The notes under the pieces are model-generated. The model searched no databases, was not told the origin of the DNA, and saw only the letters and a program-made list of their open reading frames with translations. The position numbers and the translations under genes are program-made. Below are positions 6,296-55,842 of a DNA stretch of 64,000 bases, piece by piece (position 1 is the first letter of the stretch; every line of letters starts with the position of its first letter). The stretch is from Micromonospora sediminicola (GTDB lineage: Bacteria; Actinomycetota; Actinomycetes; Mycobacteriales; Micromonosporaceae): contig NZ_FLRH01000004.1 of the NCBI RefSeq assembly GCF_900089585.1, positions 675,001 to 739,000 on the forward strand, read 5' to 3'.

Positions 6296-6296
6296 G

Positions 6297-6340: not shown

Positions 6341-6411
6341 TGGGGAGGGAAGGGAGCGCACAGGCAGTGCGTCCGTGTTCCGGAGATGTCCCGGCGCCGG
6401 TGGTAGGTGAG

Positions 6412-6947: not shown

Positions 6948-7499
6948 ATGAACACGATCCTGCGCAAGAGCATCCTCGGTATCGCTGGTCTGGCCTTCAC
7001 CGGTGGCGTGTTCGCCGGTCCGGTCGCCGCCCACACCGACACCCCCGCCCACGCCGCCGCCAAGCCCGTCGCGGTCGCCACCGTGCAGGGTGAGCAGTCG
7101 CGCATCACCCTGAACGACGAGCAGCTGGCCAACGCGAAGGCGATCATCGCCGCGACGAAGAAGGCCGGCCTGCCCGAGCGGGCCGCGGTCATCTCGATCG
7201 CCACCGCCCTGCAGGAGTCGAAGCTGGAAAACCTCGGCCACCTCGGCGACCGCAACGACCACGACTCGCTGGGCCTGTTCCAGCAGCGCCCCTCCTCCGG
7301 TTGGGGCACGCCGGAGCAGATCACCGACCCCGAGTACTCCACCCTGGCGTTCCTCAAGGGCCTGAAGCAGGTCGACGGCTGGGAGAAGATGCCCCTGACC
7401 GACGCCGCCCAGACCGTCCAGGTCTCCGCCTACCCCGACGCCTACGCGCAGTGGGAGAAGCAGGCCACCGACATCGTGAACCAGCACTGGACCAAGTAA
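6948..7499 (+). CDS. Secreted protein with lysozyme-like (transglycosylase-type) fold
   Basis: A 183-residue exported protein with a Sec signal peptide (hydrophobic LGIAGLAFTGGVFAG, likely cleaved near VAAHT). The C-terminal ~120 residues have the pattern of small actinobacterial lysozyme-like proteins: ALQESKL near residue 88, whose Glu would be the catalytic acid, then DSLGLFQQRPS and a WEKM segment. This suggests cleavage or remodelling of peptidoglycan outside the membrane, though the family is often left unnamed. An ATG also occurs at 6936, but GGAG at 6938-6941 sits 6 nt before ATG 6948, so that start is preferred. It is followed by a strong terminator shared with a convergent gene. Confidence 0.75.
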   Translation: MNTILRKSILGIAGLAFTGGVFAGPVAAHTDTPAHAAAKPVAVATVQGEQSRITLNDEQLANAKAIIAATKKAGLPERAAVISIATALQESKLENLGHLGDRNDHDSLGLFQQRPSSGWGTPEQITDPEYSTLAFLKGLKQVDGWEKMPLTDAAQTVQVSAYPDAYAQWEKQATDIVNQHWTK

Positions 7500-7510
7500 G
7501 ACCAACGCGA

Positions 7511-7543
7511 AAGGCCGGCACCCCGAACGGGGGTGCCGGCCTT
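7511..7543. terminator. Bidirectional terminator
   Basis: Perfect 14-bp stem (AAGGCCGGCACCCC at 7511-7524, complement at 7530-7543) with a 5-nt loop, 11 bp after the lysozyme-like gene and 20 bp before the stop of the convergent LamG/PKD gene. The AA/TT ends make it usable in both directions. Confidence 0.85.
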
Positions 7544-7562
7544 CACGCGTACCGGAAAGGGG

Positions 7563-9209: not shown

Positions 9210-9382
9210 GTGACCGCCTCCCTGCGTATCGGGCCTCACCCTGACACGCGGCGGTCGAGCGCTCCATAATCCGCACGGTGGACCCGTACCGGGTCCTCGG
9301 TGGGTTGGGCTGACCGATGTGGCCGGTCTTGTCCGGCCGGTGGGAGATGTCCGCCGGTCGAGCGGCGGTCGGGGAGAACGAG

Positions 9383-9454
9383 TGGGCGATACTGGGTTTG
9401 AACCAGTGACCTCTTCCGTGTCAAGGAAGCGCGCTCCCACTGCGCCAATCGCCC
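9383..9454 (-). tRNA. tRNA-Val (GAC), copy 1
   Basis: 72-nt cloverleaf on the minus strand: GGGCGAT acceptor pairing with ATCGCCC, anticodon loop TTGACAC (anticodon GAC), T-arm GGTTCAAAC, discriminator A, no encoded CCA. Identical in sequence to the copy at 11939-12010. Confidence 0.95.
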
Positions 9455-9466
9455 GGGCGGTTCGCG

Positions 9467-9539
9467 AGCGGACGACGGGATTCGAACCCGCGACCCTCAC
9501 CTTGGCAAGGTGATGCGCTACCAGCTGCGCTACGTCCGC
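9467..9539 (-). tRNA. tRNA-Gly (GCC), copy 1
   Basis: 73-nt cloverleaf on the minus strand: GCGGACG acceptor, D-arm with AGCTGGTAGCGC, anticodon loop TTGCCAA (anticodon GCC), T-arm GGTTCGAAT, no encoded CCA. It lies 12 bp upstream of the Val gene in the same transcription direction and is identical to the copy at 12129-12201. Confidence 0.95.
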
Positions 9540-9687
9540 GTCGTCACCGGCTGCGCCGGCGACGGGGGAAACTCTACCCGATGCCAAGATCGCCCTGCGG
9601 CAGCCCCCCGGCCACGGTGATTGCGCTGCTCGACCCCGGGGTACTGGGCGATGCGACAGCACAACCATCCCCCCGAAGGAGGCTGTC

Positions 9688-9930
9688 ATGGGTATCGGTA
9701 CGAGCATCTTCCTGATCGCGGTCGGCGCGATCCTCACCTTCGCGCTCAACGCCAACGTCGGCGGGGTCGACCTCGACGTCGTCGGTTGGATCCTGATGGC
9801 GGCCGGCGTGCTCGGCCTCATCATGACCACGCTGGTCTGGGGCCGGCGCCGCCAGGTGGTCACCACCACCGAGCAGCCGGTCGAGTACCGCCGGGTCGAG
9901 GAGCGCCGGGACGTCGCCCCGCCGATGTGA
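9688..9930 (+). CDS. Small membrane protein, DUF6458-like
   Basis: An 80-residue protein with two hydrophobic spans (SIFLIAVGAILTFAL, residues ~4-20, and WILMAAGVLGLIMTTLVW, ~33-50) joined by a short GGVDLDV loop, and a charged cytoplasmic tail rich in Arg and Glu. The pattern matches the actinobacterial DUF6458 family of unknown function. AAGGAGG at 9676-9682 supports ATG 9688. It stands alone between the first tRNA pair and a terminator. Confidence 0.85.
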   Translation: MGIGTSIFLIAVGAILTFALNANVGGVDLDVVGWILMAAGVLGLIMTTLVWGRRRQVVTTTEQPVEYRRVEERRDVAPPM

Positions 9931-9975
9931 GGCGAGCCGGGGGCCGACGGAGCTGATCGGTCCCCGGACCGGCCC

Positions 9976-10005
9976 GGACGGGGGCGCCAGATGGCGCCCC
10001 CGTCC
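9976..10005. terminator. Terminator after the DUF6458-like gene
   Basis: Complementary arms GGACGGGGGCGCCA (9976-9989) and 9992-10005 form a very stable GC hairpin between the 3' ends of the small membrane protein and the convergent PEP-mutase-family gene. Confidence 0.75.
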
Positions 10006-10016
10006 GCGTGCCGGGA

Positions 10017-10835
10017 TCAGTCCCGCATCAGCTCGTTGATCGTCCCGTAGTCGAGCGCGTCGGCCAGCGCCCCGTACGTGCCGTCGCCGAGGGCCTCCAC
10101 GGCCGCGCGCCGGGCCACCGCGTACGCCGCCTCGGCCACCGCCGAGCCGAGGCTGACCCGGGCCACCCCGAGACGCGCCAACTCCGCCACCGGCGGCGCG
10201 CCCGGCCCGGCCAGCACGTTCAGGGGCGCGGGGATCGCCGCCACCAGCGCCGCCACGGTCTGCGGGTCGACCGTCCCCGGCACGAAGACACCGTCCGCGC
10301 CGGCGGCCAGGTAGGCGTCGGCCCGCGCCACGGTCTCCGGCACCCCGCCGACGCCCCGGAGGAAGGTGTCCACCCGCGCGTTCAGGTACAGCGGAACGCC
10401 GGCGCGGTCGGCCGCGGCGCGGACCGCGGCGAGCCGGGCGCACTGCTCGTCGACCGGGCGCAGCGGCCCACCGCCGTCGTGTCGGGCGTCCTCGACGTTG
10501 ACGCCGACGGCGCCGGCCGCGAGCACCGCGGTGACGGTCTCGGCGACGTCGTCGGGGCGGGCGCCGTAGCCGGACTCGATGTCGGCGGTGACGGGCAGGC
10601 GTACCGCGGCGGCGACCCGGCGGATCACGTCGACGGCGGTCTCCCGGGCGAGCGCGTCGCCGTCGGGCGCGCCGCGACTCCACGCCACGCCGGCGCTGGT
10701 GGTGGCGACCGCGCGGGCGCCGGCGTCGGCCACGATCCGGGCGCTCGCCGCGTCCCAGGAGTTGACCAGGACCAGCGGCTCGCCGGGCACGTGCAGGCCG
10801 CGGAACTGTCGGGCTCGGATGTGCTGTTCGTTCAC
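10017..10835 (-). CDS. Isocitrate lyase/PEP mutase family enzyme
   Basis: A 272-residue (beta/alpha)8-barrel protein of the PEP mutase/isocitrate lyase superfamily. Seen motifs are LVLVNSWDAASARI near residue 22, the metal-binding PVTADIESGYG near residue 85, and GVNVEDA followed by NARVDTFL around residues 118-158. The isocitrate-lyase KKCGH signature is absent, so a C-C or P-C lyase/hydrolase of the short branch (2-methylisocitrate lyase-like, oxaloacetate hydrolase-like) is more likely; the substrate is not known. The start is GTG 10835. It is divergent from an ArsR-type regulator 70 bp away, and an inverted repeat lies in the gap, so that regulator may control it. Confidence 0.8.
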   Translation of the reverse strand: MNEQHIRARQFRGLHVPGEPLVLVNSWDAASARIVADAGARAVATTSAGVAWSRGAPDGDALARETAVDVIRRVAAAVRLPVTADIESGYGARPDDVAETVTAVLAAGAVGVNVEDARHDGGGPLRPVDEQCARLAAVRAAADRAGVPLYLNARVDTFLRGVGGVPETVARADAYLAAGADGVFVPGTVDPQTVAALVAAIPAPLNVLAGPGAPPVAELARLGVARVSLGSAVAEAAYAVARRAAVEALGDGTYGALADALDYGTINELMRD

Positions 10836-10873
10836 CCGGTCAGTCTCGGTGGGGGTCGGCCGGTCGCCGTATT

Positions 10874-10893
10874 GTTTCAGTCCTGGCTGAAAC
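10874..10893. promoter_or_regulatory. Operator-like palindrome between divergent genes
   Basis: GTTTCAG-6 nt-CTGAAAC, a perfect 7-bp inverted repeat in the 70-bp gap between the PEP-mutase-family gene and the winged-helix regulator. Its size and spacing fit an ArsR/MarR-type dimer site. Confidence 0.6.
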
Positions 10894-10905
10894 GAAGGGG
10901 GCGGT

Positions 10906-11886
10906 GTGGTCGCGATCGGCCTGTCGGCGGGCGCCGTGGCGCGGGTCCGGTTCGCGCTGTCCGGCCTGTGGGAGGTGATGGCCGGCGTCCGGGTGCTCCG
11001 CGATCCCGGCCGGCACGCGATCCACCTGCCCTGGGCCGCCCGGGTCCGGCCGCGGTTGGCCGACGCGGGGCTGCTCGACCCGGAGGCCGGCCTGCTGTGG
11101 CGTCTGGTGCCGGCGGCCCCGGGCTACCTGCCGGACTTTCTCACCCCGCCGCCGGCCGGCCTGGACCCGGACCTGGCCGAGGAACTGGCCACGCTGCGCG
11201 CCACCCGCCCCGAGGTGGTCCGCGCCCACCTGGACCTGCTGCCCGGTCCCCGCCCGGCGGTGGTGGCCGCCCTGTACGCCGATCCGGTCGCCGGGCTGGC
11301 CCGGCTGGCCGCCGAGATCGACGCCTACTGGCGGCTGGCCGTCGCCGACGACTGGCCCCGGATCCGGGCGGTGCTCGACGCGGAGGTCTTCCACCGGGCC
11401 CGCCGGATGGCCGAGGACGGCACCGCCGGCCTTCTCAACGACCTGCACGAGTTGGTCCGCTGGGAGGGCGACGCGCTGCTGGTCAGCCAGCGGCACTGCC
11501 CGGCGCCGGACGTACCCGAGGGGGGTGGTCTGGTCCTGGTGCCCTCGGTGTTCGTCTGGCCGTCGGTGCTGAGCATCGCGGCCGGGGACGTCTCCCAGCT
11601 GGCCTATCCGGCGCGCGGTGTCGGCACGCTGTGGGAGACCCCGGTGCGCGCGCCGGACGCGCTGGGCGCGGTGCTGGGCCGGGGCCGGGCGCGGCTGCTG
11701 GCGGCGCTGGACGCGCCCCGGTCGACGACGGAGCTGGCCCGACGGACCGGGCTCTCCCCGGCCGGGGTGTCGCAGCACCTCACCGCGCTGCGGGCCGCCG
11801 GCCTGGTGGTGACCCGGCGCCAGGGCCGGTCGCTGCTGAGCAGTCGGACCCCGGTGGCGGAGGCGTTGCTGGGCGCGTCGGCCTGA
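10906..11886 (+). CDS. ArsR-type winged-helix transcriptional regulator (DUF5937-like)
   Basis: A 326-residue protein whose last ~80 residues are a winged helix: LLAALDAPRSTTELARRTGLSPAGVSQHLTALRAAGLV is a classic ArsR-type helix-turn-helix. The first ~240 residues form a long actinobacterial domain of unknown function (DUF5937-like) that may bind a ligand. The start is GTG 10906 after GAAGGGGGCGGT. It lacks an obvious cysteine metal site, so metal sensing is unlikely. It is divergent from the PEP-mutase-family enzyme, with a palindrome between them, and is closed by a terminator 14 bp after its stop. Confidence 0.82.
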   Translation: MVAIGLSAGAVARVRFALSGLWEVMAGVRVLRDPGRHAIHLPWAARVRPRLADAGLLDPEAGLLWRLVPAAPGYLPDFLTPPPAGLDPDLAEELATLRATRPEVVRAHLDLLPGPRPAVVAALYADPVAGLARLAAEIDAYWRLAVADDWPRIRAVLDAEVFHRARRMAEDGTAGLLNDLHELVRWEGDALLVSQRHCPAPDVPEGGGLVLVPSVFVWPSVLSIAAGDVSQLAYPARGVGTLWETPVRAPDALGAVLGRGRARLLAALDAPRSTTELARRTGLSPAGVSQHLTALRAAGLVVTRRQGRSLLSSRTPVAEALLGASA

Positions 11887-11899
11887 CCGAGGGAACGAG

Positions 11900-11931
11900 A
11901 AAGGCCGTGTCGAGTGTTCGACACGGCCTTT
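11900..11931 (+). terminator. Terminator after the ArsR-type gene
   Basis: Perfect 14-bp stem AAAGGCCGTGTCGA (11900-11913) with complement 11918-11931 and a GTGT tetraloop, ending in TTTCC. It lies directly between the regulator and the tRNA genes. Confidence 0.85.
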
Positions 11932-11938
11932 CCGATGG

Positions 11939-12010
11939 TGGGCGATACTGGGTTTGAACCAGTGACCTCTTCCGTGTCAAGGAAGCGCGCTCCCACTGCG
12001 CCAATCGCCC
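11939..12010 (-). tRNA. tRNA-Val (GAC), copy 2
   Basis: 72 nt, identical to copy 1 (9383-9454), with anticodon GAC. Third gene of the Gly-Cys-Val cluster read on the minus strand. Confidence 0.95.
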
Positions 12011-12023
12011 TCGTCAACTGCCG

Positions 12024-12094
12024 AGGTGGAGACGGGATTTGAACCCGTGTACACGGCTTTGCAGGCCGTTGCCTCGCCTCTCGGCCACTCCACC
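12024..12094 (-). tRNA. tRNA-Cys (GCA)
   Basis: 71-nt cloverleaf on the minus strand: GGTGGAG acceptor, D-arm TGGCCGAGAGGC, anticodon loop CTGCAAA (anticodon GCA), T-arm GGTTCAAAT. It sits between the Gly and Val genes of the second cluster and has no counterpart in the first. Confidence 0.95.
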
Positions 12095-12128
12095 GAGGTT
12101 GCCCCCGACATGCGTGGCGGCATCTCCG

Positions 12129-12201
12129 AGCGGACGACGGGATTCGAACCCGCGACCCTCACCTTGGCAAGGTGATGCGCTACCAGCTGCGCTACGTCCG
12201 C
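12129..12201 (-). tRNA. tRNA-Gly (GCC), copy 2
   Basis: 73 nt, identical to copy 1 (9467-9539), with anticodon GCC. First gene of the Gly-Cys-Val cluster on the minus strand. Confidence 0.95.
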
Positions 12202-12462
12202 ACGCCCCCGGTTGTTTTCCGGTGACGGATGAGAACTTTAGCCGAGCCCGGGAACGGTTGCCAAATCGGGTCCCCTCCCGGCGCGTCCGGGGCGGTGACG
12301 TCGAACCTCCCGTAGGGCTTCCTAGGAGCCTGGGCAAGCCGCCGCCGAGTCGGCCGGGAAGCGCGTCCACCTGCGGATCCAGACCGGCGGGTGGAGTGTC
12401 CGGCATCCGACTGTCCCACCGCCGACCGGCCGCTCCGGTAACTCCTCGTGGTCATTCGGATG

Positions 12463-12475
12463 GGTTACGGTAACC
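12463..12475. promoter_or_regulatory. Perfect 13-bp palindrome at a TetR gene start
   Basis: GGTTACGGTAACC, a perfect palindrome about a central G, ends 2 bp before the proposed GTG start at 12478. It would cover the promoter or initiation site, as expected for TetR autorepression. Confidence 0.6.
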
Positions 12476-12477
12476 GC

Positions 12478-13080
12478 GTGACGAGACGTGCCGCCGAGAT
12501 CCGCCTGGACGCGCTGCTGCGCACGGCCTGCGAGGTGATCGCGGAACGAGGGCTCGCCAACACCCGCACCGCCGACGTGGCCGAGGCCGCCGGGGTGAGC
12601 CAGGCGCTGGTGTTCTACCACTTCGCGACGAAGGACCGGCTGCTCGCGCAGGCCTTCGCGTACGCGGTGGAGCAGGACCTGGCCCGGCTGGACGCGGTGC
12701 TTCGCTCCTCCGCCCCGCCGTTGGCGAAGCTGCGGCGGATGCTCCGGCTCTACGCGCCGACCGGCCGCTCCACCTCCTGGTCCATGTGGATCGACGGCTG
12801 GTCCGAGTCGCTGCGGACGCCGGAGCTGGAGAAGCTCTCCCGCCGGCTGGACCTGCGGTGGCGGCAGGACCTGGCGTCGGTGATCAGCGACGGGGTCGCC
12901 GACGGCACCTTCGACTGCCCCGACCCGGCCGGCGCCGCCTGGCGGATCAGCGCGGTGATGGACGGCCTGGCGGTGCAGCTCGCGGTGCACGAGCGGGTGA
13001 TCACCCGCCGGCAGATCGCCGAGTGGATCCGCCTGGTCGCCGCCCGCGAGCTGGGCCTGGAACCCAGCCAGCTCGATTGA
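12478..13080 (+). CDS. TetR-family transcriptional regulator
   Basis: A 200-residue regulator. Residues ~5-55 form the TetR DNA-binding domain (LLRTACEVIAERGLANTRT, then AEAAGVSQALVFYHFATKDRL); the C-terminal part is an all-helical ligand/dimer domain resembling the BetI-like TetR_C_6 group. GTG 12478 is chosen because it starts just before the first helix; the frame is open 30 bp further up, but that would place a likely operator palindrome inside the gene. It is convergent with alkB, which could be a target, although the inverted repeat upstream of alkB differs from this palindrome. The effector is unknown. Confidence 0.85.
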   Translation: MTRRAAEIRLDALLRTACEVIAERGLANTRTADVAEAAGVSQALVFYHFATKDRLLAQAFAYAVEQDLARLDAVLRSSAPPLAKLRRMLRLYAPTGRSTSWSMWIDGWSESLRTPELEKLSRRLDLRWRQDLASVISDGVADGTFDCPDPAGAAWRISAVMDGLAVQLAVHERVITRRQIAEWIRLVAARELGLEPSQLD

Positions 13081-13099
13081 ACCGCCCCGACCCCGAGTC

Positions 13100-13130
13100 C
13101 GCGTCCGCGTCGCACCGGAACGCGGACGCG
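13100..13130. terminator. Hairpin between tetR and alkB 3' ends
   Basis: 11-bp perfect stem (CGCGTCCGCGT at 13100-13110, complement 13120-13130) with a 9-nt loop in the 60-bp gap between convergent genes. Confidence 0.6.
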
Positions 13131-13140
13131 AACTCCCCGG

Positions 13141-14331
13141 TCACCCCTGGGAGCGCGGGGCGGGCGCGGGGGGTTCGGGGAACGCGGGGCGGGCCGGGGA
13201 CCGGGAGAGACGGGCGCGGGCCGGCGGGTGGACGTTGGCGGCGGAGAGGTCGCCGTCGTAGTGGGCCAGCACGCGGTGGTCCATGATCCGACGCCAGACC
13301 GGGGGCACCAGCGCGGCGACCACCATGGTGGCGTAGCCGGCGGGCAGCTGCGGCGAGGCGTCGAAGCTGCGCAGCGTCTGGTAGCGGCGCAGCGGGTTGG
13401 CGTGGTGGTCGCTGTGCCGCTGGAGCTGGAAGAGGAAGACGTTGGTGACCGTCCGGTCGCTGTTCCAGCTGTGCCGGGGATCCACCTTCTCGTAGCGACC
13501 CGCGGCGGTGCGCTGTCGGGCCAGCCCGTAGTGCTCCAGGTAGTTGACCACCTCCAGCAGGGAGAAGCCGACCACCGCCTGGAGGACGAGGAACACCAGC
13601 ACGCCGGGGCCGAACGCCACCGCCAGCGCGGCGTAGAGCAGCACGGTCATGGCCCAGGCGTTGAGCACGTCGTTGCGCCACGTCCACGGGTTGCGGCCGC
13701 GCAGGCGAAACCGCCCGGTCTCCAGCCGCCAGGCCGAGCGCAGGCTGCCCCAGACCGTCCGCGGCCAGAACCTCCAGAACGTCTCGCCCAGCCGTGAGCT
13801 GGCCGGGTCCTCGGGGGTGGCGACCCGGGTGTGGTGGCCGCGGTTGTGCTCGACGTAGAAGTGCCCGTACCCGGTCGGCGCCAGGGCGATCTTGGACAGC
13901 CAGCGTTCCGCCCGCTCCCGCTTGTGGCCCAGCTCGTGCGCGGTGTTGATGGCGATGCCGTCCACCACCCCGACGGTGGCGACGAGTCCGGCGGCCGCCC
14001 ACCAGGAGAGCCCGCCGGCGGCCCACACGGCGCAGCACAGCACCAGGGCGGCGTACTGGGCGGGCAGGTAGAGGTAGGTGAGCCAGCGGTAGTAGCCGTC
14101 CGCCTGCAACGCCGGCACCGCCTCGTCCGGCGGGTTCTCCCGGTCGTCGCCGATCAGCAGGTCGATCACGGGGATGAGGCCGAAGACCACGGCGGGGGTT
14201 AGCCACCAGGCCCACCCCGCGTCCGTGGCGCGCCAGACCGACCAGGCCACGAACGGCAGCACCGGGACGAGCAGGGCGAGCGGCCAGAGCGGTTTGCGGG
14301 TGTCCCGCCACGGAACGGTGTCGGTGCGCAT
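13141..14331 (-). CDS. alkB: Alkane 1-monooxygenase (AlkB-type membrane diiron hydroxylase)
   Basis: This 396-residue integral membrane protein hydroxylates the terminal carbon of medium- to long-chain alkanes using a diiron centre, with electrons from rubredoxin. The eight-histidine signature is present: AHELGHK, EHNRGHH and LQRHSDHH in order, plus the AlkB-specific NYLEHYG motif; the Asn-Pro-Leu-Arg-Arg-Tyr-Gln segment follows the last His box. Several hydrophobic spans precede and separate the boxes. ATG 14331 is used; a TTG one codon upstream is less likely. No rubredoxin gene is adjacent and no C-terminal rubredoxin domain is fused, so the electron partners must be elsewhere. The Pro/Arg-rich tail of ~35 residues is unremarkable. 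Confidence 0.93.
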   Translation of the reverse strand: MRTDTVPWRDTRKPLWPLALLVPVLPFVAWSVWRATDAGWAWWLTPAVVFGLIPVIDLLIGDDRENPPDEAVPALQADGYYRWLTYLYLPAQYAALVLCCAVWAAGGLSWWAAAGLVATVGVVDGIAINTAHELGHKRERAERWLSKIALAPTGYGHFYVEHNRGHHTRVATPEDPASSRLGETFWRFWPRTVWGSLRSAWRLETGRFRLRGRNPWTWRNDVLNAWAMTVLLYAALAVAFGPGVLVFLVLQAVVGFSLLEVVNYLEHYGLARQRTAAGRYEKVDPRHSWNSDRTVTNVFLFQLQRHSDHHANPLRRYQTLRSFDASPQLPAGYATMVVAALVPPVWRRIMDHRVLAHYDGDLSAANVHPPARARLSRSPARPAFPEPPAPAPRSQG

Positions 14332-47233: not shown

Positions 47234-47246
47234 GCAGCCCTCCGCC

Positions 47247-47351
47247 GGCTGGCGGCTGGCGGCTGGCGGCTGGCGGCTGGCGGCTGGCGGCTGGCGGCTG
47301 GCGGCTGGCGGCTGGCGGCTGGCGGCTGGCGGCTGGCGGCTGGCGGCTGGC
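47247..47351. repeat. Perfect 15-copy tandem array of a 7-bp unit
   Basis: Fifteen uninterrupted, identical copies of GGCTGGC, flush with the left arm of a hairpin element that begins at 47352. The array is outside any real gene. On the minus strand it would encode repeated SRQPPAA, which is an artefact. Confidence 0.95.
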
Positions 47352-47403
47352 GAGATCTTGGTACGAAAGGGCCCCTCTGAGGGCCGTTTCGTACCAAGAT
47401 CTC
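47352..47403. repeat. 52-bp hairpin element, copy B
   Basis: Perfect 17-bp arms, GAGATCTTGGTACGAAA at 47352-47368 and complement at 47387-47403, round a core GGGCCCCTCTGAGGGCCG that can itself pair. Same length, ends and core as copy A (6244-6295) but different inner arm bases with matching changes on both arms. Confidence 0.9.
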
Positions 47404-47858
47404 CGCGCTTCCCAATAGGCGGGACATTCTTCTCGAAGTTCGGAAACCTCTCGCCGACGAAACGGCAATCCCGGACCGGGCGGTTCGACAGGCGCAGCCC
47501 CGGGCGCCTGCGGGGCACGTGGTCGCCATGGCGGGACCGCCGCAACTGATGACCTCCGTGGCCAACGCCACCCGTGGCAGGCGGCCCCGTCGACCACGTC
47601 GATGAGCGGCCGGGCACGTCCAGGGCGGGTAGCCACCGCAGCGACCCGACCGGGCGGAGAACAGTCGAGCCCGTTCGCCCGGGACGCCGCCGAGGCGGAC
47701 CAGACGGCACGCACCGTGGTCGGTCGGATCCGGGGGGCGACCGCCGGGCGCACGACCGGCGTGGCGTCCGCCGCGTCGCGTGGCAACCTGTCGCATCCCT
47801 CGGGCAGGATGCACGACGTGCACCGCCAACGGTACGACCAGCCGACCGGAGACAGCCG
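47404..47858. other. 455-bp interval upstream of the herA operon
   Basis: No convincing gene. An 86-codon frame at 47602-47862 runs into the herA start but has no ribosome site or recognised family. The interval presumably holds the operon promoter. Confidence 0.55.
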
Positions 47859-49607
47859 ATGACCGACGACCAGCTCGACGGGCCCGGCGAGGGGGTCGGC
47901 CGGGTGCTCGGCACCGCCGACGCCACCCCGCTCACCTTCTGGACGGCCGTCGCCCCCGGCAGCTACCTGCAACTCGACGACGTGGTGGTGACCCGCCGCG
48001 AGCTGCCCGACCGCGAGCCGGTGACCATCGCCGGCGTGGTGACCCAGGTGCGCGCCCGGCACGAGGGCGCGCAGTTCGACTCCGACGTCTTCGCCATCGC
48101 CGACGGCACGCTGCCGGCCCAGGTGCAGGAGGCCGCCGAGGTCACCACCACCCGGGTCGACCCCGAGTTCTACGTCCCGCCGACCCCCGGCGCGGTGGTG
48201 CACCGGGCCGAGGGTGACGCCCGGGCCCGGGCGCTGCACTTCGACCGGATGGAGCGGCGGATCCCGATGGGGATGGGCCGCGACGGGGTGCCGGTCTACC
48301 TCAACGCCGACTTCCTCGACGGCACCCGGGGCGCGCACGTCTCGATCTCCGGCATCTCCGGTGTCGCCACCAAGACCAGCTTCGCCACCTTCCTGCTCTA
48401 CTCGGTGTTCCGCTCCGGTGTGCTCGGCGGCGACGCGGTCAACGCCAAGGCGCTGATCTTCAACGTCAAGGGCGAGGACCTGCTCTTCCTCGACCACCCG
48501 AACAGCCGGCTCGACGACCCGACCCGGGCGGCGTACGCGAAGCTCGGCCTCGACGCCGGCGCGTTCCCGGACGTGCGGGTCTACGCGCCGCCCCGGGTCG
48601 GCGACTCCTCCGGCACCCCCGACGTGAGCAGCCGGCTCACCGGGGTGGACAGCTTCTACTGGACGCTGACCGAGTTCTGCGCCGACCGCCTGCTGCCCTA
48701 CGTGTTCGCCGACGCCGACGACGAGCGCCAGCAGTACACGATGGTGGTCCACTCGGTCGCCGCCCACCTGGCCCGGTACGCCCAGCCGGCCGACGGCGGG
48801 GTGAGCATCGACGGGGTGCGGCTCGGCTCCTACGCGGATCTGGTCGACCACGTGGTCGAGCAGCTCAACGACGACGAGACCCGGGGCGACTGGGCCGGCA
48901 GCGCGGTCGGGCTGGGCACCGTCAACGCGTTCGCCCGCCGGTTGATCGGCAGCAAGAAGGACCTGGGCCGGCTGATCCGGGGCGATCTGGCCACCCGCCG
49001 CCCGCACTCGATCAACACCGCGGAGAGCGCCCAGGTCACCGTGGTCGACCTGCACAACCTGCCGGACCGCGCGCAGCGCTTCGTGGTCGGCGTGACGCTC
49101 AAGAGTGAGTTCGAGCGCAAGGAGAAGGCCGGCACCGCCAAGCCGTTGCTCTTCGTCGTGCTCGACGAGCTGAACAAGTACGCCCCGCGCGAGGGCTCGT
49201 CACCGATCAAGGAGGTGCTGCTCGACATCGCCGAGCGGGGCCGCTCGCTGGGCGTGATCCTGGTCGGCGCGCAGCAGACCGCCAGCGAGGTCGAGCGGCG
49301 GATCGTCACCAACTCGGCGATCCGGGTGGTCGGTCGGCTCGACCCGGCCGAGGCGTCCCGCCCGGAATACGGCTTCCTCCCGCCCGCCCAGCGGCAGCGG
49401 GCGCTGCTGGCCAAGCCGGGCACAATGTTCGTCAACCAGCCCGACATCCCGGTGCCGCTCTGCCTGGAGTTCCCGTTCCCGGCCTGGGCCACCCGGGTCT
49501 CCGAGGCGGGCCGCGCGCCGTCGGAGACGCTACGGTCGATCACCCAGGCCGCCGACCCGTTCGCGGTGGTCGGTTCCGGCTCCTCCGACGACGACATCCC
49601 GTTCTAG
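47859..49607 (+). CDS. herA: HerA-like ATPase/DNA translocase (DUF87)
   Basis: A 582-residue ATPase of the HerA/FtsK class. After an N-terminal HAS-barrel-like part (~20-135), the ATP site reads HVSISGISGVATKTSF: the P-loop is GVATKTS at residues 168-174, lacking the usual Gly before Lys172. The Walker B is LLFVVLDELNKYAP with Asp436-Glu437, followed by LGVILVGAQQTASEVERRIVTNSAIRVVGRLD, the sensor and arginine-finger area. HerA hexamers pump DNA for the NurA nuclease during end resection. CGGAG at 47847 precedes ATG 47859. It heads an operon with sbcD (12 bp gap), sbcC, a NurA-like gene and a spermidine-synthase-like gene. Confidence 0.85.
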   Translation: MTDDQLDGPGEGVGRVLGTADATPLTFWTAVAPGSYLQLDDVVVTRRELPDREPVTIAGVVTQVRARHEGAQFDSDVFAIADGTLPAQVQEAAEVTTTRVDPEFYVPPTPGAVVHRAEGDARARALHFDRMERRIPMGMGRDGVPVYLNADFLDGTRGAHVSISGISGVATKTSFATFLLYSVFRSGVLGGDAVNAKALIFNVKGEDLLFLDHPNSRLDDPTRAAYAKLGLDAGAFPDVRVYAPPRVGDSSGTPDVSSRLTGVDSFYWTLTEFCADRLLPYVFADADDERQQYTMVVHSVAAHLARYAQPADGGVSIDGVRLGSYADLVDHVVEQLNDDETRGDWAGSAVGLGTVNAFARRLIGSKKDLGRLIRGDLATRRPHSINTAESAQVTVVDLHNLPDRAQRFVVGVTLKSEFERKEKAGTAKPLLFVVLDELNKYAPREGSSPIKEVLLDIAERGRSLGVILVGAQQTASEVERRIVTNSAIRVVGRLDPAEASRPEYGFLPPAQRQRALLAKPGTMFVNQPDIPVPLCLEFPFPAWATRVSEAGRAPSETLRSITQAADPFAVVGSGSSDDDIPF

Positions 49608-49619
49608 GCGGCACCCACC

Positions 49620-50768
49620 ATGAAGATCCTGCACACCTCGGACTGGCACGTCGGCAAGGTCCTGAAGGGGCAGTCCCGGACCGAGGAGCACACACAGGTC
49701 CTCGCCCAGGTGATCGACATCGCCCGGGACGAGCGGCCCGACCTGGTCATCGTCGCCGGTGACCTCTACGACACCGCCGCGCCGACGCCGGAGGCGACCC
49801 GACTGGTGACCCGGGCGCTGACCGCGCTGCGGCGCACCGGGGCCGACGTGGTGGTGATCGGCGGCAACCACGACAACGGCGCGGCGCTGGACGCGTTGCG
49901 GCCGTGGGCCGACGCCGCCGGCATCACGCTGCGCGGCAGCGTCCGGGAGAACCCGGCCGAGCACGTCGTCGACGGGGTGACCCGCGACGGCGAGCGGTGG
50001 CAGGTCGCCGCGCTGCCGTTCCTGTCCCAGCGCTACGCCGTCCGCGCGGTGGAGATGTACTCGCTCACCCCCGCCGAGGCCAACCAGACCTACGCCGACC
50101 ACCTCGGCCGGGTGCTCGGCAAGCTGGCCGAGGGGTTCACCGAGCCGGACCGGGTGCACCTGGTCACCGCCCACCTCACCGTGGTCGGGGCGAGCACCGG
50201 CGGTGGCGAGCGGGACGCGCACACCGTGCTCGGCTACGCGGTGCCGGCCACCGTGTTCCCCGGCAACGCGCACTACGTGGCCCTGGGCCACCTGCACCGC
50301 TCGCAGCGGGTCGTCGGGCCCTGCCCGATCCGCTACAGCGGCAGCCCGCTCGCTGTCGACTTCGGTGAGCAGGAGAACGTCGGCTCGGTGACGATCGTGG
50401 AGGTGACCGCGACGACGGCCGCCCGGATCCGGGAGGTGCCGGTGCCCGGCGCGGTGCCGCTGCGCACGGTGCGCGGCACCCTCGCCCAGCTCGCCGAGAT
50501 CGAGCCGCCGGAGGGCTGGCTGCGCGTCTACGTCCGGGAGCAGCCCCGGGCCGGGCTGCGCGAGGAGGTGCAGGAGCTGCTGCCCCGGGCGCTGGAGATC
50601 CGGATCGACCCGGAGCTGGTGCCGACGCCGGGCAGCGGCACCCGCACCGCCCAGCGGGCCGGCCGCTCGCCGCGCGACCTGTTCGCCGACTACCTGGGCA
50701 GCCGCGGGCACGCCGACGAGGACGTCCGGGAACTCTTCGACGAGCTGCTCGAGGAGGTCGACCACTGA
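49620..50768 (+). CDS. sbcD: Exonuclease SbcD (Mre11-type)
   Basis: A 382-residue calcineurin-like phosphoesterase, the nuclease subunit of SbcCD. All metal motifs are present: Asp8 and His10 in TSDWHVGK, Asp48 in VAGDLYDT, Asn83-His84-Asp85 in GGNHDN, His in VTAHLTVVG and the GH motif in ALGHLHRS. With SbcC it cuts hairpins and DNA ends. Its stop overlaps the sbcC start by one base (TGATG). It lies between herA and sbcC, the same partners as Mre11 in archaea. ATG 49620. Confidence 0.96.
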   Translation: MKILHTSDWHVGKVLKGQSRTEEHTQVLAQVIDIARDERPDLVIVAGDLYDTAAPTPEATRLVTRALTALRRTGADVVVIGGNHDNGAALDALRPWADAAGITLRGSVRENPAEHVVDGVTRDGERWQVAALPFLSQRYAVRAVEMYSLTPAEANQTYADHLGRVLGKLAEGFTEPDRVHLVTAHLTVVGASTGGGERDAHTVLGYAVPATVFPGNAHYVALGHLHRSQRVVGPCPIRYSGSPLAVDFGEQENVGSVTIVEVTATTAARIREVPVPGAVPLRTVRGTLAQLAEIEPPEGWLRVYVREQPRAGLREEVQELLPRALEIRIDPELVPTPGSGTRTAQRAGRSPRDLFADYLGSRGHADEDVRELFDELLEEVDH

Positions 50769-53242
50769 TGCGGCCGATGCGACTGGACATGGCCGGCTTC
50801 ACCGTCTTCCGCGACGAGACCACCGTCGACTTCACCGACGCCGACTTCTTCGCGCTGGTCGGCCCGACCGGCTCCGGCAAGTCCACGGTGCTCGACGCGA
50901 TCTGTTTCGCCCTCTACGGCACGGTCCCCCGCTGGGGCGGCGCGCGAGGGCTGGCCAACGCGCTGGCGCCGTCGGCGACCGAGGCGCGGGTCCGGCTGGT
51001 CTTCGAGTCCGCCGGCGACCGTTACGTCGCCACCCGGGTGGTCCGTCGCGACGGCCGGGGCACGGTGAAGACGGCCAACGCCGGGCTCCAGCTCATGCCG
51101 CCGGGGTTCGACGTCACCAAGCTCGACACCGGGCTCAGCCCGGAGGACCTGGGCGAGGTGGTGGCCGGCACCCCGGCCGAGATGGAGCAGGCGGTGCTGG
51201 ACGCGGTCGGGCTGCCGTACGAGCAGTTCACCTCCTGCGTGGTGCTGCCGCAGGGGCAGTTCGCCGACTTCCTGCACGCCAAGCCGGCCACCCGTCAGCA
51301 GATCCTGGTCAACCTGCTGGGCCTGGGCGTCTACGAGGAGGTCCAGAAGAAGGCGGTCGAACGCGCCGGGCAGGCCGAGGCGAAGCTGGAGGCGGTCGAC
51401 AAGATGCTCGGCGGGCTCGCCGACGTCGACGACGAGAGTCTGACCGCCGCCCGGGAGCGGGTGGACGCGATGCGGGAGCTGGCCGCCGCGGTCGCTGCCG
51501 CCGTACCCGAATGGGAGCAGGCCCGGGCCACGGCGGGTGAGCGGGCCGCGGCGCTGGCCGACCTCGACGCCGAGCTGGGTGTGCTGGCCGGGGTGCGGCC
51601 GCCGGAGGGCACCGCCGAGCTGGCGCGGGCGGTGGCGCAGGCCCGGGTCGCCGCCGACGAGGCGGCAACCGCGGTCGGGCTGGCCGAGGAGCGCGAGGAG
51701 AAGCTGCGCGGGGAGCTGGCCGCCGCCGGTGACGAGAGCGCGCTGCGGCTGCACCTGAAGGCGTACGCGGACCGGGACCGGCTGACCGCGGAGGCGGCGA
51801 CGGTCCGCGCGGCGGTGGACGCGGCGCGGACCGAGCACGACGCGGCGGTGGCGGCGCTGGCGGCGGCGCGGGCGGACGCGCAGCGGGCCGAGACGGAGCT
51901 GGAGTCGGCGTTCCGCGCGCACGAGGAGGCGAAGGCCGCCGACCAGGCGGTGGCGCTGCGAGCGCACCTGGTCGGCGGCGCGCCGTGCCCGGTGTGCGAG
52001 CAGACGGTCACCACGGTGCCGGCGGTGCCGAAGGGTTCGGCGGTGAGCCGGGCGATCGAGGCGGGCAAGGCGGCGCGGGCGGCGAGCGAGGTGGCCAAGC
52101 GGGTCGTGCAGGACCGCGACACCACGGCGCGTGATCTGGATCGGGTGCTGCTGCGTGCCCGGACCCAGCACGACCAGCTCGGCGCGCGCCTGGCCGAGCT
52201 GGACGAGCAGCTCGCGGACGCGCCGGCGCCGGAGCGGCTGCGCGAGTCGCTGGCCGAGCACGCGCGGCTGCGGACCGCGTTGGAGGAGGCGGCCGGTGCG
52301 GTGCGGGCCGGCCGGGAGGCGGCCCGGCGGGCGCGGGGCGCACTCGACGCCGCGCAGGAGCGGCTGCGTCGGGCCTGGCGTGACTTCGACGCGGTACGCG
52401 ACGGGCTGGCCCGGTTCGGTCCGCCGGCCGCCGACCGGGACGACGTGGCGGCGGCCTGGGCAGCGCTGGCCGGCTGGGCGGGTGAGCAGGCGCAGGCGCG
52501 GCGCGCGGACCGCGACGGGCTGGCCGACTCGGTGGAGGCGGCGCAGCGGGCCGCGACCGAGGTCGCCGACGGGATCGCCGCGTTGTTCACCGCCGCCGGG
52601 CTGGACGCGCCGCAGGACGCGCCGCGCGACGTGGCGGTGGCCGTGGAGCGGGCCGAGGCGGAGCTGCGCCGCCTCGACGAGCGCCGCGAGCAGGCCGCCG
52701 ACCTGCGGGAGCAGCGGGCCGGCCACGAGCGCCAGGCGCGGGTGGCCCGCGCGCTCGCCGGGCACCTGCGGGCCAACAACTTCGAGCGGTGGCTGCTCAC
52801 CGAGGCGCTGGACCTGCTGGTCGACGGCGCGTCGCGGATCCTGCGGGAGCTGTCCGGCGGGCAGTACGACCTGGTCCACGACAAGGGCGAGTTCTTCGTG
52901 GTCGACCATCACGACGCCGGGCTGCGCCGGGGCGTGCGGACGCTGTCCGGCGGGGAGACGTTCCAGGCGTCGCTGGCCCTGGCGCTGGCGCTGTCGGAGC
53001 AACTGGCCGGCATGTCGACGAGCGCCGCGAGCCTGGAGTCCATCGTCCTGGACGAGGGCTTCGGCACGTTGGACGCGGCGACGCTGGACACGGTCGCGGC
53101 CACGCTGGAGAACCTGGCCGCCCGGGGTGACCGGATGGTGGGTGTGGTCACCCACGTGCCGGCCCTGGCGGAGCGGATCCCGGTCCGCTTCGAGGTCCGC
53201 AAGGACGCGCGCACGGCCCGCGTCGAGCGGACCGGCCTGTGA
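50768..53242 (+). CDS. sbcC: SbcC/Rad50-type SMC ATPase
   Basis: An 824-residue Rad50-like protein: Walker A GPTGSGKST at residues 32-40, Q-loop LPQGQFADFLHAKP, two long coiled-coil arms rich in Ala, Glu and Arg, the zinc hook Cys-Pro-Val-Cys at 407-410, signature LSGGE at 726-730 and Walker B IVLDEGFGTLD with Asp762-Glu763. It clamps DNA ends and drives SbcD. The arms are short compared with E. coli SbcC (about 1050 residues). ATG 50768 overlaps the sbcD stop, and the stop overlaps the NurA-like start by 4 bp. Confidence 0.96.
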   Translation: MRPMRLDMAGFTVFRDETTVDFTDADFFALVGPTGSGKSTVLDAICFALYGTVPRWGGARGLANALAPSATEARVRLVFESAGDRYVATRVVRRDGRGTVKTANAGLQLMPPGFDVTKLDTGLSPEDLGEVVAGTPAEMEQAVLDAVGLPYEQFTSCVVLPQGQFADFLHAKPATRQQILVNLLGLGVYEEVQKKAVERAGQAEAKLEAVDKMLGGLADVDDESLTAARERVDAMRELAAAVAAAVPEWEQARATAGERAAALADLDAELGVLAGVRPPEGTAELARAVAQARVAADEAATAVGLAEEREEKLRGELAAAGDESALRLHLKAYADRDRLTAEAATVRAAVDAARTEHDAAVAALAAARADAQRAETELESAFRAHEEAKAADQAVALRAHLVGGAPCPVCEQTVTTVPAVPKGSAVSRAIEAGKAARAASEVAKRVVQDRDTTARDLDRVLLRARTQHDQLGARLAELDEQLADAPAPERLRESLAEHARLRTALEEAAGAVRAGREAARRARGALDAAQERLRRAWRDFDAVRDGLARFGPPAADRDDVAAAWAALAGWAGEQAQARRADRDGLADSVEAAQRAATEVADGIAALFTAAGLDAPQDAPRDVAVAVERAEAELRRLDERREQAADLREQRAGHERQARVARALAGHLRANNFERWLLTEALDLLVDGASRILRELSGGQYDLVHDKGEFFVVDHHDAGLRRGVRTLSGGETFQASLALALALSEQLAGMSTSAASLESIVLDEGFGTLDAATLDTVAATLENLAARGDRMVGVVTHVPALAERIPVRFEVRKDARTARVERTGL

Positions 53243-54201
53243 CCCCGAAGTTCTTCGTCGACACGTGGGACCCGGCGTACGGCGCGTCGTTCGAGGCGGC
53301 GGGTGGGTCCGGTCCGGCCGCGCCGAGCAGCGCCCAGGTCGACGCGGAGGTCGAGCTGCCGGCGACGGACTGGCGGGCGATCGACGCCCGCCCGGACGTG
53401 CGCGCGCCGGACGTGGTGCTGCTGGTCGACGGCGTGCGCCGGATCGACGCCAGCGTGTGGACCGCCGAGGAGGACGGCGGCTCGTTCCCCGGCATCGCCG
53501 CCTCGTACGCCGCCGGGGTGGTCCGCTGCGACCTGGACCGGGGCGCCGCCGAGCTGGCCGGCGCCCGGGTGGGCCGAGGGCTGTTCACGGCCAGCCCGTC
53601 GGCGCAGGACGTGGTGGCCGGGGCGATCCGCTACCCGGTGCACCGGGTCTCCGGCACCGGCGAGCTGAGCAAGTTGCCCGCGGCGGTGCAGGCCCCGCTC
53701 ACCGCGCTGGAGGTGGCCGTCTCGGACGCGGTCCGCACCGACGGCGACCTGCTGGTGGTGGACGGCCCGCTGCGCAGCCGGCGCAACCTGCCGCGCACGC
53801 TCGGCTACATCAAGACCCAGCACAGCCAGTACCTGGACGCCCGGCTCACCGCGGTGGTGACCGGGCTGGCGCCGGGCCAGCGCTGCCCGGTGTTCCGGCT
53901 GGGCACGGCGTGGGGCGGCTGGTCCTGGTACCTGCGACTGCCGGTGTCCGCCGGGGCACCGTGGGCGGGCATCGTGCGGATGGAGTGCTCGGCCGACCTG
54001 ACCGTCCCGGAGGCGGTCGCGCTGGCCGACCTGTCGCTGGTCACGCTGCCCCGGTTCGCGTCCACCCCGTACAAGGACCCGCGCGCCCCGCAGAACCTGG
54101 TGCCGATCGCCGGGCTGGAGCGCCGGCTGCGCGGGATGCTCGGCGACGCCCGGCTGCTGCACCGGGTGCTCACCGCGGCGGCGCGCGGGATCCGGCGCTG
54201 A
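53239..54201 (+). CDS. nurA: NurA-like 5'-3' nuclease
   Basis: A 320-residue protein with the NurA order of motifs: first acidic motif VVLLVDGVRRID (Asp64), second LLVVDGPL (Asp175), the GYIKTQHSQYL helix (Lys192), IVRMEC (Glu249, the conserved Arg-x-Glu) and the closing TLPRFASTPYKDPRAPQNL with R, P and L at the expected places. NurA nucleases work with HerA to resect DNA ends 5' to 3', using Mn2+. The GTG 53239 start overlaps the sbcC stop by 4 bp (GTGA). The identity is by motif reading; overall similarity to archaeal NurA is likely low. Confidence 0.72.
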   Translation: MTPKFFVDTWDPAYGASFEAAGGSGPAAPSSAQVDAEVELPATDWRAIDARPDVRAPDVVLLVDGVRRIDASVWTAEEDGGSFPGIAASYAAGVVRCDLDRGAAELAGARVGRGLFTASPSAQDVVAGAIRYPVHRVSGTGELSKLPAAVQAPLTALEVAVSDAVRTDGDLLVVDGPLRSRRNLPRTLGYIKTQHSQYLDARLTAVVTGLAPGQRCPVFRLGTAWGGWSWYLRLPVSAGAPWAGIVRMECSADLTVPEAVALADLSLVTLPRFASTPYKDPRAPQNLVPIAGLERRLRGMLGDARLLHRVLTAAARGIRR

Positions 54202-55058
54202 TGGGCCGGCGACGCGACGACGACCGGGTGGTGGCCGACGTCGACACCGGCCGGGCCGACCTGGTGCCGGACCGGGACCGCCCGGGCTCCTGGACGCTGC
54301 TGCTGGACGGCGCGCCGCAGTCCCACGTGGACCTGGGTGACCCGACCCACCTGGAGTTCGAGTACGTCCGGCGACTGGCCGCCGCGCTCGACGTGGTGGC
54401 GCCGGCGGGCGCGCCGCTGCGGGTGCTGCACCTGGGCGGCGGCGCGCTCACCCTGCCCCGGTACGTGCAGGCCACCCGGCCCGGCTCGACGCAACGTGTG
54501 TCCGAGGTGGACGGCGCGTTGGTGGACCTGGTCCGCCGCGCCCTGCCCTGGCCGTCCGACCCCCGCCTGAAGGTGCGGGTGGCGGACGCCCGCGCGACGC
54601 TGACGTCCAGCCGGGACGGGGCGTACGACGTGATCGTGGCGGACGTGTTCGCCGGCGCCCGCACCCCGGCGCACCTGACCTCCGTCGAGTTCGCCGCGCA
54701 GGTGGCCCGGGTGCTCGCGCCCGACGGCTGCTACCTGGCGAACATCGCCGACGGGCCGCCGCTGCGGCACGCCCGTGGCCAGGTCGCCACCGTGCGTACC
54801 GTGTTGCCCCGGGCCTGCCTGGTGGCCGACGCGGCGGTGCTGCGCGGCCGGAGGTACGGCAACCTGGTGCTGGTGGCGTCCCGGGTGGAGCCGCCGGTGC
54901 CGGAGCTGACCCGACGCGCGGCCGGCGACTGGTTCCCCGGTCGGGTGGTGGCCGGCGCGGACCTGGACCGGTTCGCCGGCGGTGTCGCGGTGGTGCGCGA
55001 CGCGGACGCCGTCGACTCCACTCCGCCCCCGCCGGGAATTTTTTCGGTCGATCGTTGA
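54201..55058 (+). CDS. Spermidine-synthase-like SAM-binding protein, fifth gene of the resection operon
   Basis: A 285-residue Rossmann protein of the spermidine synthase/methyltransferase superfamily: LLLDGAPQSHVDLGDPTHLEFEYVRRL resembles the substrate-side beta-hairpin of spermidine synthases, VLHLGGGALTLPRYV is the SAM/dcSAM loop, and DVIVADVFAGARTP stands for the catalytic DxxxD strand. The key polyamine-binding Asp and Glu cannot all be matched, so a methyltransferase or polyamine-related enzyme is open. ATG 54201 overlaps the NurA-like stop by one base, so it is translated with the repair genes. Such spermidine-synthase-like genes are widespread in actinobacteria, often without known role. 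Confidence 0.8.
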   Translation: MGRRRDDDRVVADVDTGRADLVPDRDRPGSWTLLLDGAPQSHVDLGDPTHLEFEYVRRLAAALDVVAPAGAPLRVLHLGGGALTLPRYVQATRPGSTQRVSEVDGALVDLVRRALPWPSDPRLKVRVADARATLTSSRDGAYDVIVADVFAGARTPAHLTSVEFAAQVARVLAPDGCYLANIADGPPLRHARGQVATVRTVLPRACLVADAAVLRGRRYGNLVLVASRVEPPVPELTRRAAGDWFPGRVVAGADLDRFAGGVAVVRDADAVDSTPPPPGIFSVDR

Positions 55059-55140: not shown

Positions 55141-55842
55141 ATGCATGCGGTGGCGGCCGGCTGGCACGGCGAGGTGGCGAGGCCCGAGTGGATGTTCGCC
55201 CGGGCGCAGCCACACTCGCGCGCGTCGCGCTCGGGACGGGGGGTCGACGCCCGCCCCGCGGATCGCCAGAATGACCCGGTGCCGCCGCGACCCGCCCCCG
55301 GACGCCACCAGGCGACCTCCGCCGAGGCCAGCCACTCGGACCAGCTGATCCGGCTGCTCTACGCGGAGCACGCCGGGCCGCTGCTGATGTTCGTGATGCG
55401 GCTGACCGGCGGGGACCGGCAGCGCGCCGAGGACATCGTGCAGGAGACGCTGCTGCGGGCCTGGCGCAACGCGCACCGCCTCGGCGTGCAGGGTGGTCAG
55501 GGCTCGCTGCGGCCGTGGCTGGTGACGGTGGCCCGGCGGATCGCGATCGACGAGCACCGCAGCGAGCAGGCCCGGCCGGCGGAGACGTACGACCGGGACC
55601 TGACCGCGTTCGCGGAGGCGGACAGCACCGACCGGGTGTTGCGCACGATGACCGTGGCGGACGCGCTGCGTACGCTGAGCCAGTCCCACCGGGAGATCCT
55701 GGTGGCGACGTACTTCCGGGGTCGTACCGTGCCCGAGGCGGCCGAGGAGCTGGGCCTTCCGCTCGGCACCGCGAAGTCACGGGTCTACTACGCGCTGCGC
55801 GCGCTGCGCACGGCTCTGCAGGAGAGGGGGGTGACGGAATGA
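55141..55842 (+). CDS. ECF sigma factor, SigL-like
   Basis: A 233-residue ECF sigma factor. Region 2 is LIRLLYAEHAGPLLMFVMRLTGG...AEDIVQETLLRAWRN (cited: AEDIVQETLLRAW, near residue 110); region 4 is LRTLSQSHREILVATYFRGRTVPEAAEELGLPLGTAKSRVYYALRAL (cited: LGLPLGTAKSRVYYAL). It matches the SigL/SigK-like group held by a zinc anti-sigma. GGAGG lies 5 nt before ATG 55141 and the N-terminal ~46 codons keep actinobacterial codon bias; GTG 55279 would give a more typical 187-residue length. Its stop overlaps the anti-sigma start (ATGA). Confidence 0.9.
   Translation: MHAVAAGWHGEVARPEWMFARAQPHSRASRSGRGVDARPADRQNDPVPPRPAPGRHQATSAEASHSDQLIRLLYAEHAGPLLMFVMRLTGGDRQRAEDIVQETLLRAWRNAHRLGVQGGQGSLRPWLVTVARRIAIDEHRSEQARPAETYDRDLTAFAEADSTDRVLRTMTVADALRTLSQSHREILVATYFRGRTVPEAAEELGLPLGTAKSRVYYALRALRTALQERGVTE

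Follow-up and report, generated by a model that had tools for sequence, protein, structure and literature searches.

A bacterial-type HerA–SbcD–SbcC–NurA gene set, a candidate DNA-end resection module, in Micromonospora sediminicola and its family

Why does an actinobacterium carry, side by side on one strand, the four functions that archaea cluster in their herA-mre11-rad50-nurA operons, and what might the set do there? The question is raised by five plus-strand genes at positions 47859–55058 of a 64,000-nucleotide stretch of the Micromonospora sediminicola genome (contig NZ_FLRH01000004.1; hereafter the window), with successive gaps of 12, −1, −4 and −1 bp (Table 1). An initial annotation made from the sequence alone had described the run as an archaeal-type HerA–Mre11–Rad50–NurA resection set followed by a spermidine-synthase-like gene, and a check of the open reading frames returned the same genes, coordinates and gaps. 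We find that the names HerA, SbcD (Mre11), SbcC (Rad50) and NurA are borne out (by PDB sequence matches, the NurA fold, TIGR00619 and ATPase domains) and that the set is an old, standard possession of Micromonosporaceae. The four proteins very probably work together in trimming broken DNA ends, and we assign a probability of roughly 0.7 to the reading that they form a DNA-end resection module acting beside an AdnAB-like helicase–nuclease.

HerA and NurA

Genes 1 and 4 had no curated family match over cut-off and were named from PDB sequence matches, NurA also from its fold. The HerA sequence matched that of Deinococcus radiodurans (drHerA) at E = 1.2e-149, whereas E was 0.01 or worse for four other solved HerA-like proteins. 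Both it and drHerA have the shifted Walker A motif GISGVATKTS, and alignment to 7f6d_B revealed that K175, T176, K217, D220, D487, E488, R495, R513 and R552 of drHerA are all identical here, including the Walker A Lys and Thr, the Walker B Asp and Glu, the trans-acting R513 and the pore residues R495 and R552 of bacterial-type HerA. In drHerA, K175 and T176 bind nucleotide and Mg (PMC9960219). NCBIfam HerA models matched far below cut-off and PADLOC HerA models at E = 5e-6 or worse (mad8 at E = 2.7e-8). The herA frame is open upstream of 47859 (possible start, 47574). We compared 80 loci of Micromonospora kin (the top 80 of 520 relatives, almost entirely Micromonospora, Salinispora and Plantactinospora): in 76 of them the alignment of the homologue begins at the first residue of the 47859 product, with which a longer protein is still compatible. 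Sequence comparison places gene 1 as a HerA of the bacterial (D. radiodurans) kind.

Current family models leave the pair unnamed, with HerA below the NCBIfam cut-offs and NurA giving no match at E = 1 in Pfam, NCBIfam or PADLOC. Among PDB sequences, NurA matched D. radiodurans NurA (drNurA; 7f6d_H) at E = 3.6e-20 and Thermotoga TM1739 weakly (E = 0.1). An AlphaFold model built from 55 close homologues (55 of 64 rows, comprising 63 loci and the window sequence) had a predicted local distance difference test score (pLDDT) of 70.3 and a predicted template modelling score of 0.67 (mean pLDDT of the five models: 70, 67, 50, 50 and 48). It aligned with 7f6d_G (Foldseek E = 2.2e-14; Z 19.6 over 282 residues, 3.6 Å) and 1zup_A (TM1739; Z 19.1 over 260 residues, 3.5 Å), whereas Z was 11.5 against Sulfolobus NurA and 9.0 against Pyrococcus NurA. 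Argonautes and endonuclease V in lower rows of the fold tables were read as reflecting the common RNase H arrangement. The fold and the PDB match to drNurA spoke for NurA. The Pfam family PF09376, which the initial annotation had proposed as a check of the fourth gene, had no match at E = 0.001 in the host genome, whereas 7 of 14 control genomes matched. Since the closest solved relatives of both HerA and NurA are the Deinococcus pair, we do not retain the label 'archaeal-type'.

D64, E158, D175, K192, R247, E249 and R282 of NurA do not vary in any of 116 sequences, of which 35 come from outside the family (of 119 loci with a NurA match, four were omitted: L151, with a frame of 548 aa, and L008, L018 and L055, cut by the locus end); R247-x-E249 is the Arg-x-Glu segment on which the initial annotation had leaned. 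D64, K192 and R282 align with drNurA D53, K201 and R309 (the chain numbering is 20 above that of the paper, by our own count), each of which is required for drNurA nuclease activity (PMC9960219). Because residues essential in drNurA are invariant, the protein looks active. W10, compared with the W8/pin of the drNurA N-terminal arm, is kept in 114 of 116 sequences; residues 12–30 are of low model quality, and residue 17 is the first in the structural alignment. Predicted fold and sequence together assign gene 4 to the bacterial type of NurA.

The D. radiodurans NurA–HerA system (PDB 7F6D, 7WRW and 7WRX) therefore resembles the pair described here in its type of HerA, including the shifted Walker A, in the NurA fold and in catalytic and translocation residues. 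It differs in that nurA and herA were deleted jointly as an operon (PMC9960219) and that D. radiodurans is said, in a 2026 paper, to lack Mre11–Rad50 (PMC12977600), whereas the Micromonospora operon has SbcD and SbcC between the two genes, in a genome that also encodes an AdnAB-like pair. Archaeal operons cluster the same four functions but differ in their NurA, given the Z-scores above and the missing PF09376 match.

Distribution, gene order and the HerA-linked SbcD

HerA occurs in 120 of 121 sampled Micromonosporaceae genomes (107 of 107 of good quality; 44 of 44 genera) and NurA in 118 of 121 (106 of 107 of good quality). In the three genomes without NurA (G319, G327 and G353) the herA contig ends inside sbcC, and in the genome without HerA (G383) NurA sits 232 bases from the contig start; as the missing genes sit at contig ends, we read these absences as assembly gaps. 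In a class sample, HerA was found at E = 1e-30 or better in 16 of 296 genomes (2 of Micromonospora and 14 of other families). In a phylum sample, 107 of 296 genomes had a HerA match at E = 0.001; 65 genomes were better than 1e-60 (hand count), all but two of them outside the class. The set is hence no oddity in an actinobacterium, as had been implied, being family-wide and frequent in the phylum sample.

Gene order is kept far beyond chance in related genomes, so that neither of the outcomes that would have spoken against the set arose: the fourth gene has the NurA fold and alignable catalytic acids, and the order is conserved. The arrangement herA-sbcD-sbcC-nurA on one strand is present in 66 of the 80 loci of Micromonospora kin (with sbcC in three pieces in L021); the other 14 are truncated by a contig end, within sbcC or just past herA, which makes 66 of 66 uncut loci. 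Among loci from other genera of the family it holds in 17 of 20, the remaining 3 being cut, and it holds in all 13 loci fetched from other families of the class (sbcC in two pieces in L138). Of 27 loci from other actinobacterial classes, 11 share this order and 12 read nurA-herA-sbcD-sbcC; another 3 are cut, and L143 contains herA alone. In L178, about 9.7 kb of genes, metabolic and regulatory by eye, lie between herA and sbcD (4543–14221 of that locus), with sbcD-sbcC-nurA intact. Two Micromonospora strains have a ~1.56-kb insertion at the sbcD–sbcC junction (L017, 12908–14470; L042, 12944–14507; 83% identical) carrying a 512–514-aa frame that looks TnpB-type to us (zinc-ribbon and RuvC-like motifs).

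A HerA tree was built from 6 of the 80 loci, the window and 60 other loci (short search, midpoint root, some long branches). It places the class rows on one side of a branch with a Shimodaira–Hasegawa-like approximate likelihood-ratio test (SH-aLRT) value of 100 and, within these, the family rows on one side of a branch with a value of 98; nurA-first versus nurA-last amounts to only two changes. This grouping by taxonomy, together with the distribution, points to vertical inheritance, accompanied by many losses in the class, and away from a recent acquisition. In the host genome (6.9 Mb), HerA is 99–100% identical to the HerA of several Micromonospora species.

Comparable arrangements are known from other bacteria. 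The hepA-sbcD-sbcC cluster of Oceanithermus profundus likewise has a bacterial herA followed by sbcD and sbcC (PMC5448004), so that a bacterial cluster of this kind is already in print. In Thermus, nurA precedes herA (PMC5448004), as in the 12 nurA-first actinobacterial loci, whereas nurA stands last in Micromonosporaceae. We found no account of an actinobacterial HerA–SbcCD–NurA operon in titles and abstract openings of the open PMC literature; a prior mention is possible in subscription papers, for example the 2004 herA paper.

SbcD scored 177.1 bits against TIGR00619 (cut-off, 77.65). SbcC exceeded the cut-offs of AAA_23 (PF13476) and SbcC_Walker_B (PF13558) and scored 273.9 bits (E = 2.8e-81) against the subfamily model TIGR00618, below its cut-off of 478.5; on these models it is filed as a Rad50/SbcC-type ATPase outside the TIGR00618 subfamily. 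It contains a CPVC motif, presumably a zinc hook. With the window SbcD as query, a match at E = 1e-15 was obtained in 171 of the 296 class genomes and one below 1e-100 in 16. The latter coincide with the 16 genomes that have HerA at E = 1e-30, none of the other 280 reaching that level; the next best match had E = 9.3e-44 and 34% identity. In a tree of 66 operon SbcD sequences (the HerA-tree set minus L143, which has no SbcD) and 20 hand-picked stand-alone ones (short search), a long branch (drawn length 1.52; SH-aLRT 100) splits 18 of the 20 stand-alone rows from the side that holds every one of the 66 operon rows. Operon SbcD is a lineage separate from the usual stand-alone SbcD and tied to HerA, and three genomes (G579, G520 and G664) carry both kinds. 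This separate lineage is the new point of our analysis; a limited search of open literature (titles and abstract openings) found no prior account of it. The two remaining stand-alone rows (L198 and L201) are SbcD–SbcC pairs, long-branched among the HerA-linked rows, whose genomes (G632 and G629) each hold a second SbcD match; they are perhaps a third, mobile kind of SbcCD.

A usual stand-alone SbcD (L213) as query gave only distant matches in 61 of 61 Micromonosporaceae genomes (best, 139.7 bits), one per genome and two in G324; as a yardstick, the 17 other usual stand-alone rows give it 284–626 bits, and operon rows no more than 134. The host genome has a single sbcD by TIGR00619, the operon copy. 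On both counts, the HerA-linked SbcD seems to be the one on which Micromonosporaceae depend, the usual kind being apparently absent. A bolder and tentative extension, to which we give somewhat less than even odds, is that actinobacteria have two kinds of SbcCD, the usual stand-alone one and an ancient second one obligately joined to HerA–NurA as a four-subunit end-resection machine, and that Micromonosporaceae lost the former and run the latter in parallel with AdnAB. If true, two complete helicase–nuclease resection machines are kept side by side in one bacterial family.

Proposed role beside AdnAB and rival explanations

The initial annotation had offered a second end-processing pathway as one explanation, which agrees with the presence of an AdnAB-like pair in the same genome: two large frames 3 kb apart with RecB-type nuclease domains. 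The second frame, the sole member compared with the PDB, matched 6ppu_B, which we take to be mycobacterial AdnAB, at E = 6.8e-136. Mycobacterial AdnAB is likewise a helicase–nuclease for DNA ends, made of proteins unrelated to HerA–NurA. An AdnAB-like tandem pair was present in 27 of 35 selected HerA carriers outside the family (hand count; 2 at contig edges and 1 with a first frame of 731 aa) and in all 3 control genomes without HerA. No trade-off between the two systems was seen, and HerA–NurA does not simply replace AdnAB. The three members of family f16 among these carriers, G051 (the L143 genome), G226 and G097, all have no AdnAB-like pair.

By analogy with D. radiodurans and archaea, SbcCD would bind and open or clean DNA ends, blocked or hairpin ends included. 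A HerA hexamer would load on the end and, driven by ATP hydrolysis, pump the duplex into a NurA dimer bound where the DNA leaves the hexamer; during translocation NurA would cut the strands, chiefly the 5′ one, leaving a 3′ tail for RecA. HerA–NurA with SbcCD would work beside AdnAB and not in its place. The 6:2 complex, the 5′ resection, the hand-over from SbcCD and the repair role are carried over from those systems and stay conditional; the component identities, the intact catalytic residues, the conserved linkage and the HerA-tied SbcD lineage are established here. Mutation of drNurA D53, K201 or R309, or of drHerA K175, D487/E488, R495 or R552, impairs or abolishes activity (PMC9960219). 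The counterparts are kept here (NurA D64, K192 and R282; HerA K175, D487/E488, R495 and R552).

Several observations weigh against a joint repair module. No SOS-type or RecA-NDp-type damage motif lies in the 300 bp 5′ of herA in the window and 78 of the 80 loci; in the whole window GAACN4GTTC is absent, and a RecA-NDp-like pattern occurs once, at chance level and far from the operon. Eight of the 35 HerA carriers have no AdnAB-like pair (G226, G203, G051, G284, G097, G197, G010 and G247), L143 (genome G051) has no sbcD, sbcC or nurA within the 19.5 kb fetched, and extra genes, up to 9.7 kb, separate herA from sbcD in L148, L157 and L174–L178. The 4-bp overlap of sbcC and nurA frequently gives way to a gap, of about 100 bp in several Micromonospora (with script-picked starts). 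R154, the second trans-acting Arg of drHerA, aligns with Asp, an Arg following a few residues further on; we did not treat it as family-defining, its mutation not being described in the available part of PMC9960219. Among the NurA-binding acids of drHerA (D78, E80 and D81), D78 alone is kept (E80 is F, D81 is A); interface acids align poorly outside Deinococcus (PMC9960219), and hence the triad was not counted as family-defining either. With E80, D81 and R154 not conserved, the HerA–NurA interface differs in detail. Strains of D. radiodurans with nurA/herA deleted survived UV and mitomycin C better (PMC9960219), and HerA–NurA of Thermococcus kodakarensis degrades both strands, which its authors, who doubt a role in resection, take as a possible antiviral sign (PMC12977600).

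The Thermococcus result would suit a defence module, in which HerA would drive invading phage or plasmid DNA into NurA for destruction of both strands; the initial annotation had raised this idea, which we consider unlikely. The NurA model does resemble the nuclease of TdpAB, presumably a defence system (Foldseek E = 5e-4; Z 10.6), and PADLOC MADS models match SbcC (mad3, E = 4.7e-27), HerA (mad8, 2.7e-8) and gene 5 (mad2, 1.1e-7), as an LmuB model matches SbcC (E = 3.5e-19). No such match was obtained for NurA or SbcD. These matches probably reflect ATPase and methyltransferase folds held in common: mad8 hits SbcC as well, and the curated models of SbcD, SbcC and spermidine synthase give SbcD, SbcC and gene 5 much better scores. 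Some defence systems combine HerA with Sir2 or DUF4297 (PMC12977600, PMC11291478), and these systems and TdpAB have, as here, a HerA-type ATPase with a nuclease or effector. However, the partner here is a bacterial-type NurA with SbcCD, and HerA matches the other solved HerA proteins at E = 0.01 or worse against 1e-149 for drHerA. Defence genes are usually patchy in distribution, whereas this HerA is in every sampled genus of the family, its tree follows taxonomy and its operon is linked to the sole SbcD found in the host genome. The presence in every genus and the link to the family's SbcD favour housekeeping repair over defence.

Alternatively, an ordinary SbcCD might have HerA–NurA merely parked alongside, the linkage being historical and the two complexes acting separately. 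Thermus nurA-herA stands in an unrelated gene context (PMC5448004), the D. radiodurans genes are treated as a two-gene operon (PMC9960219), insertions between herA and sbcD are tolerated in some genera, and L143 has a lone herA. Yet SbcD is no ordinary one, its lineage occurring in 16 of 16 class genomes with HerA and 0 of 280 others (E < 1e-100), and nurA switched sides of the cluster but remained in it, and we regard this explanation as improbable, to much the same degree as defence. A recent archaeal transfer, which the likeness to the herA-mre11-rad50-nurA cluster could suggest, is far less probable than either and was rejected on the bacterial PDB relatives of HerA and NurA, the NurA fold scores and the HerA tree, in which class and family rows each fall on one side of a branch (SH-aLRT 100 and 98).

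Most work on bacterial HerA–NurA concerns Deinococcus and Thermus, in which its function is contested. Micromonosporaceae (among them Micromonospora and Salinispora) are a mesophilic family in which the pair is universal in our sample and joined to an SbcCD lineage of its own; with an AdnAB-like machine alongside in the genome studied, its role is open to gene-deletion testing.

Upstream block, fifth gene and flanks

We aligned the 150 bp 5′ of herA from 78 loci of Micromonospora kin and the window. Mean identity to the window is 0.76–0.96 per 10 bp across a block directly upstream of the gene (Table 1), compared with 0.35–0.49 at 47709–47758, and we infer that the block is promoter-like.

Table 1 Features of the locus (window positions)
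Feature	Position	Strand	Description	Evidence
Conserved non-coding block 5′ of herA	47761..47813	+	Promoter-like by inference	79-sequence alignment
herA	47859..49607	+	HerA/FtsK-type DNA translocase, bacterial (Deinococcus) type by sequence; 582 aa, ATG	PDB 7f6d_B/7wrw/7wrx, E 1.2e-149
sbcD	49620..50768	+	Mre11 family nuclease, HerA-linked SbcD lineage; 382 aa, ATG	TIGR00619; tree
sbcC	50768..53242	+	Rad50 family ATPase; 824 aa, ATG	PF13476, PF13558 over cut-off
nurA	53239..54201	+	RNase H-fold nuclease, predicted bacterial NurA type; 320 aa, GTG	PDB 7f6d_H; predicted fold; invariant residues
Gene 5	54201..55058	+	Spermidine-synthase-like protein, neighbour, probably outside the module; 285 aa, ATG	NF037959, 105 bits

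Gene 5 is spermidine-synthase-like, as first annotated (cut-off of the NF037959 model, 40 bits). It is present in 62 of the 80 loci of Micromonospora kin, the other 18 being cut before it, and in only 1 of the 17 uncut loci that represent other genera of the family (the L178 sequence covered 0.7 kb past nurA). We therefore rejected it as a conserved member of the set, in which it had initially been included, and regard it as probably a neighbour outside the module. Directly 3′ of gene 5 and on the same strand lies a gene for an extracytoplasmic function (ECF)-type sigma factor (Sigma70_r2 and r4; 55141–55842). Further upstream, positions 47246–47403 hold a perfect 7-bp tandem array (CGGCTGG, 15.3 copies) and, immediately after it, a palindrome (16-bp arms; DNA fold z-score, −8.5). 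The arm's 16-base pattern was counted 11 times across the genome, with three convergent pairs among these copies (reversed control, 0), and the palindrome belongs to a dispersed palindromic repeat.

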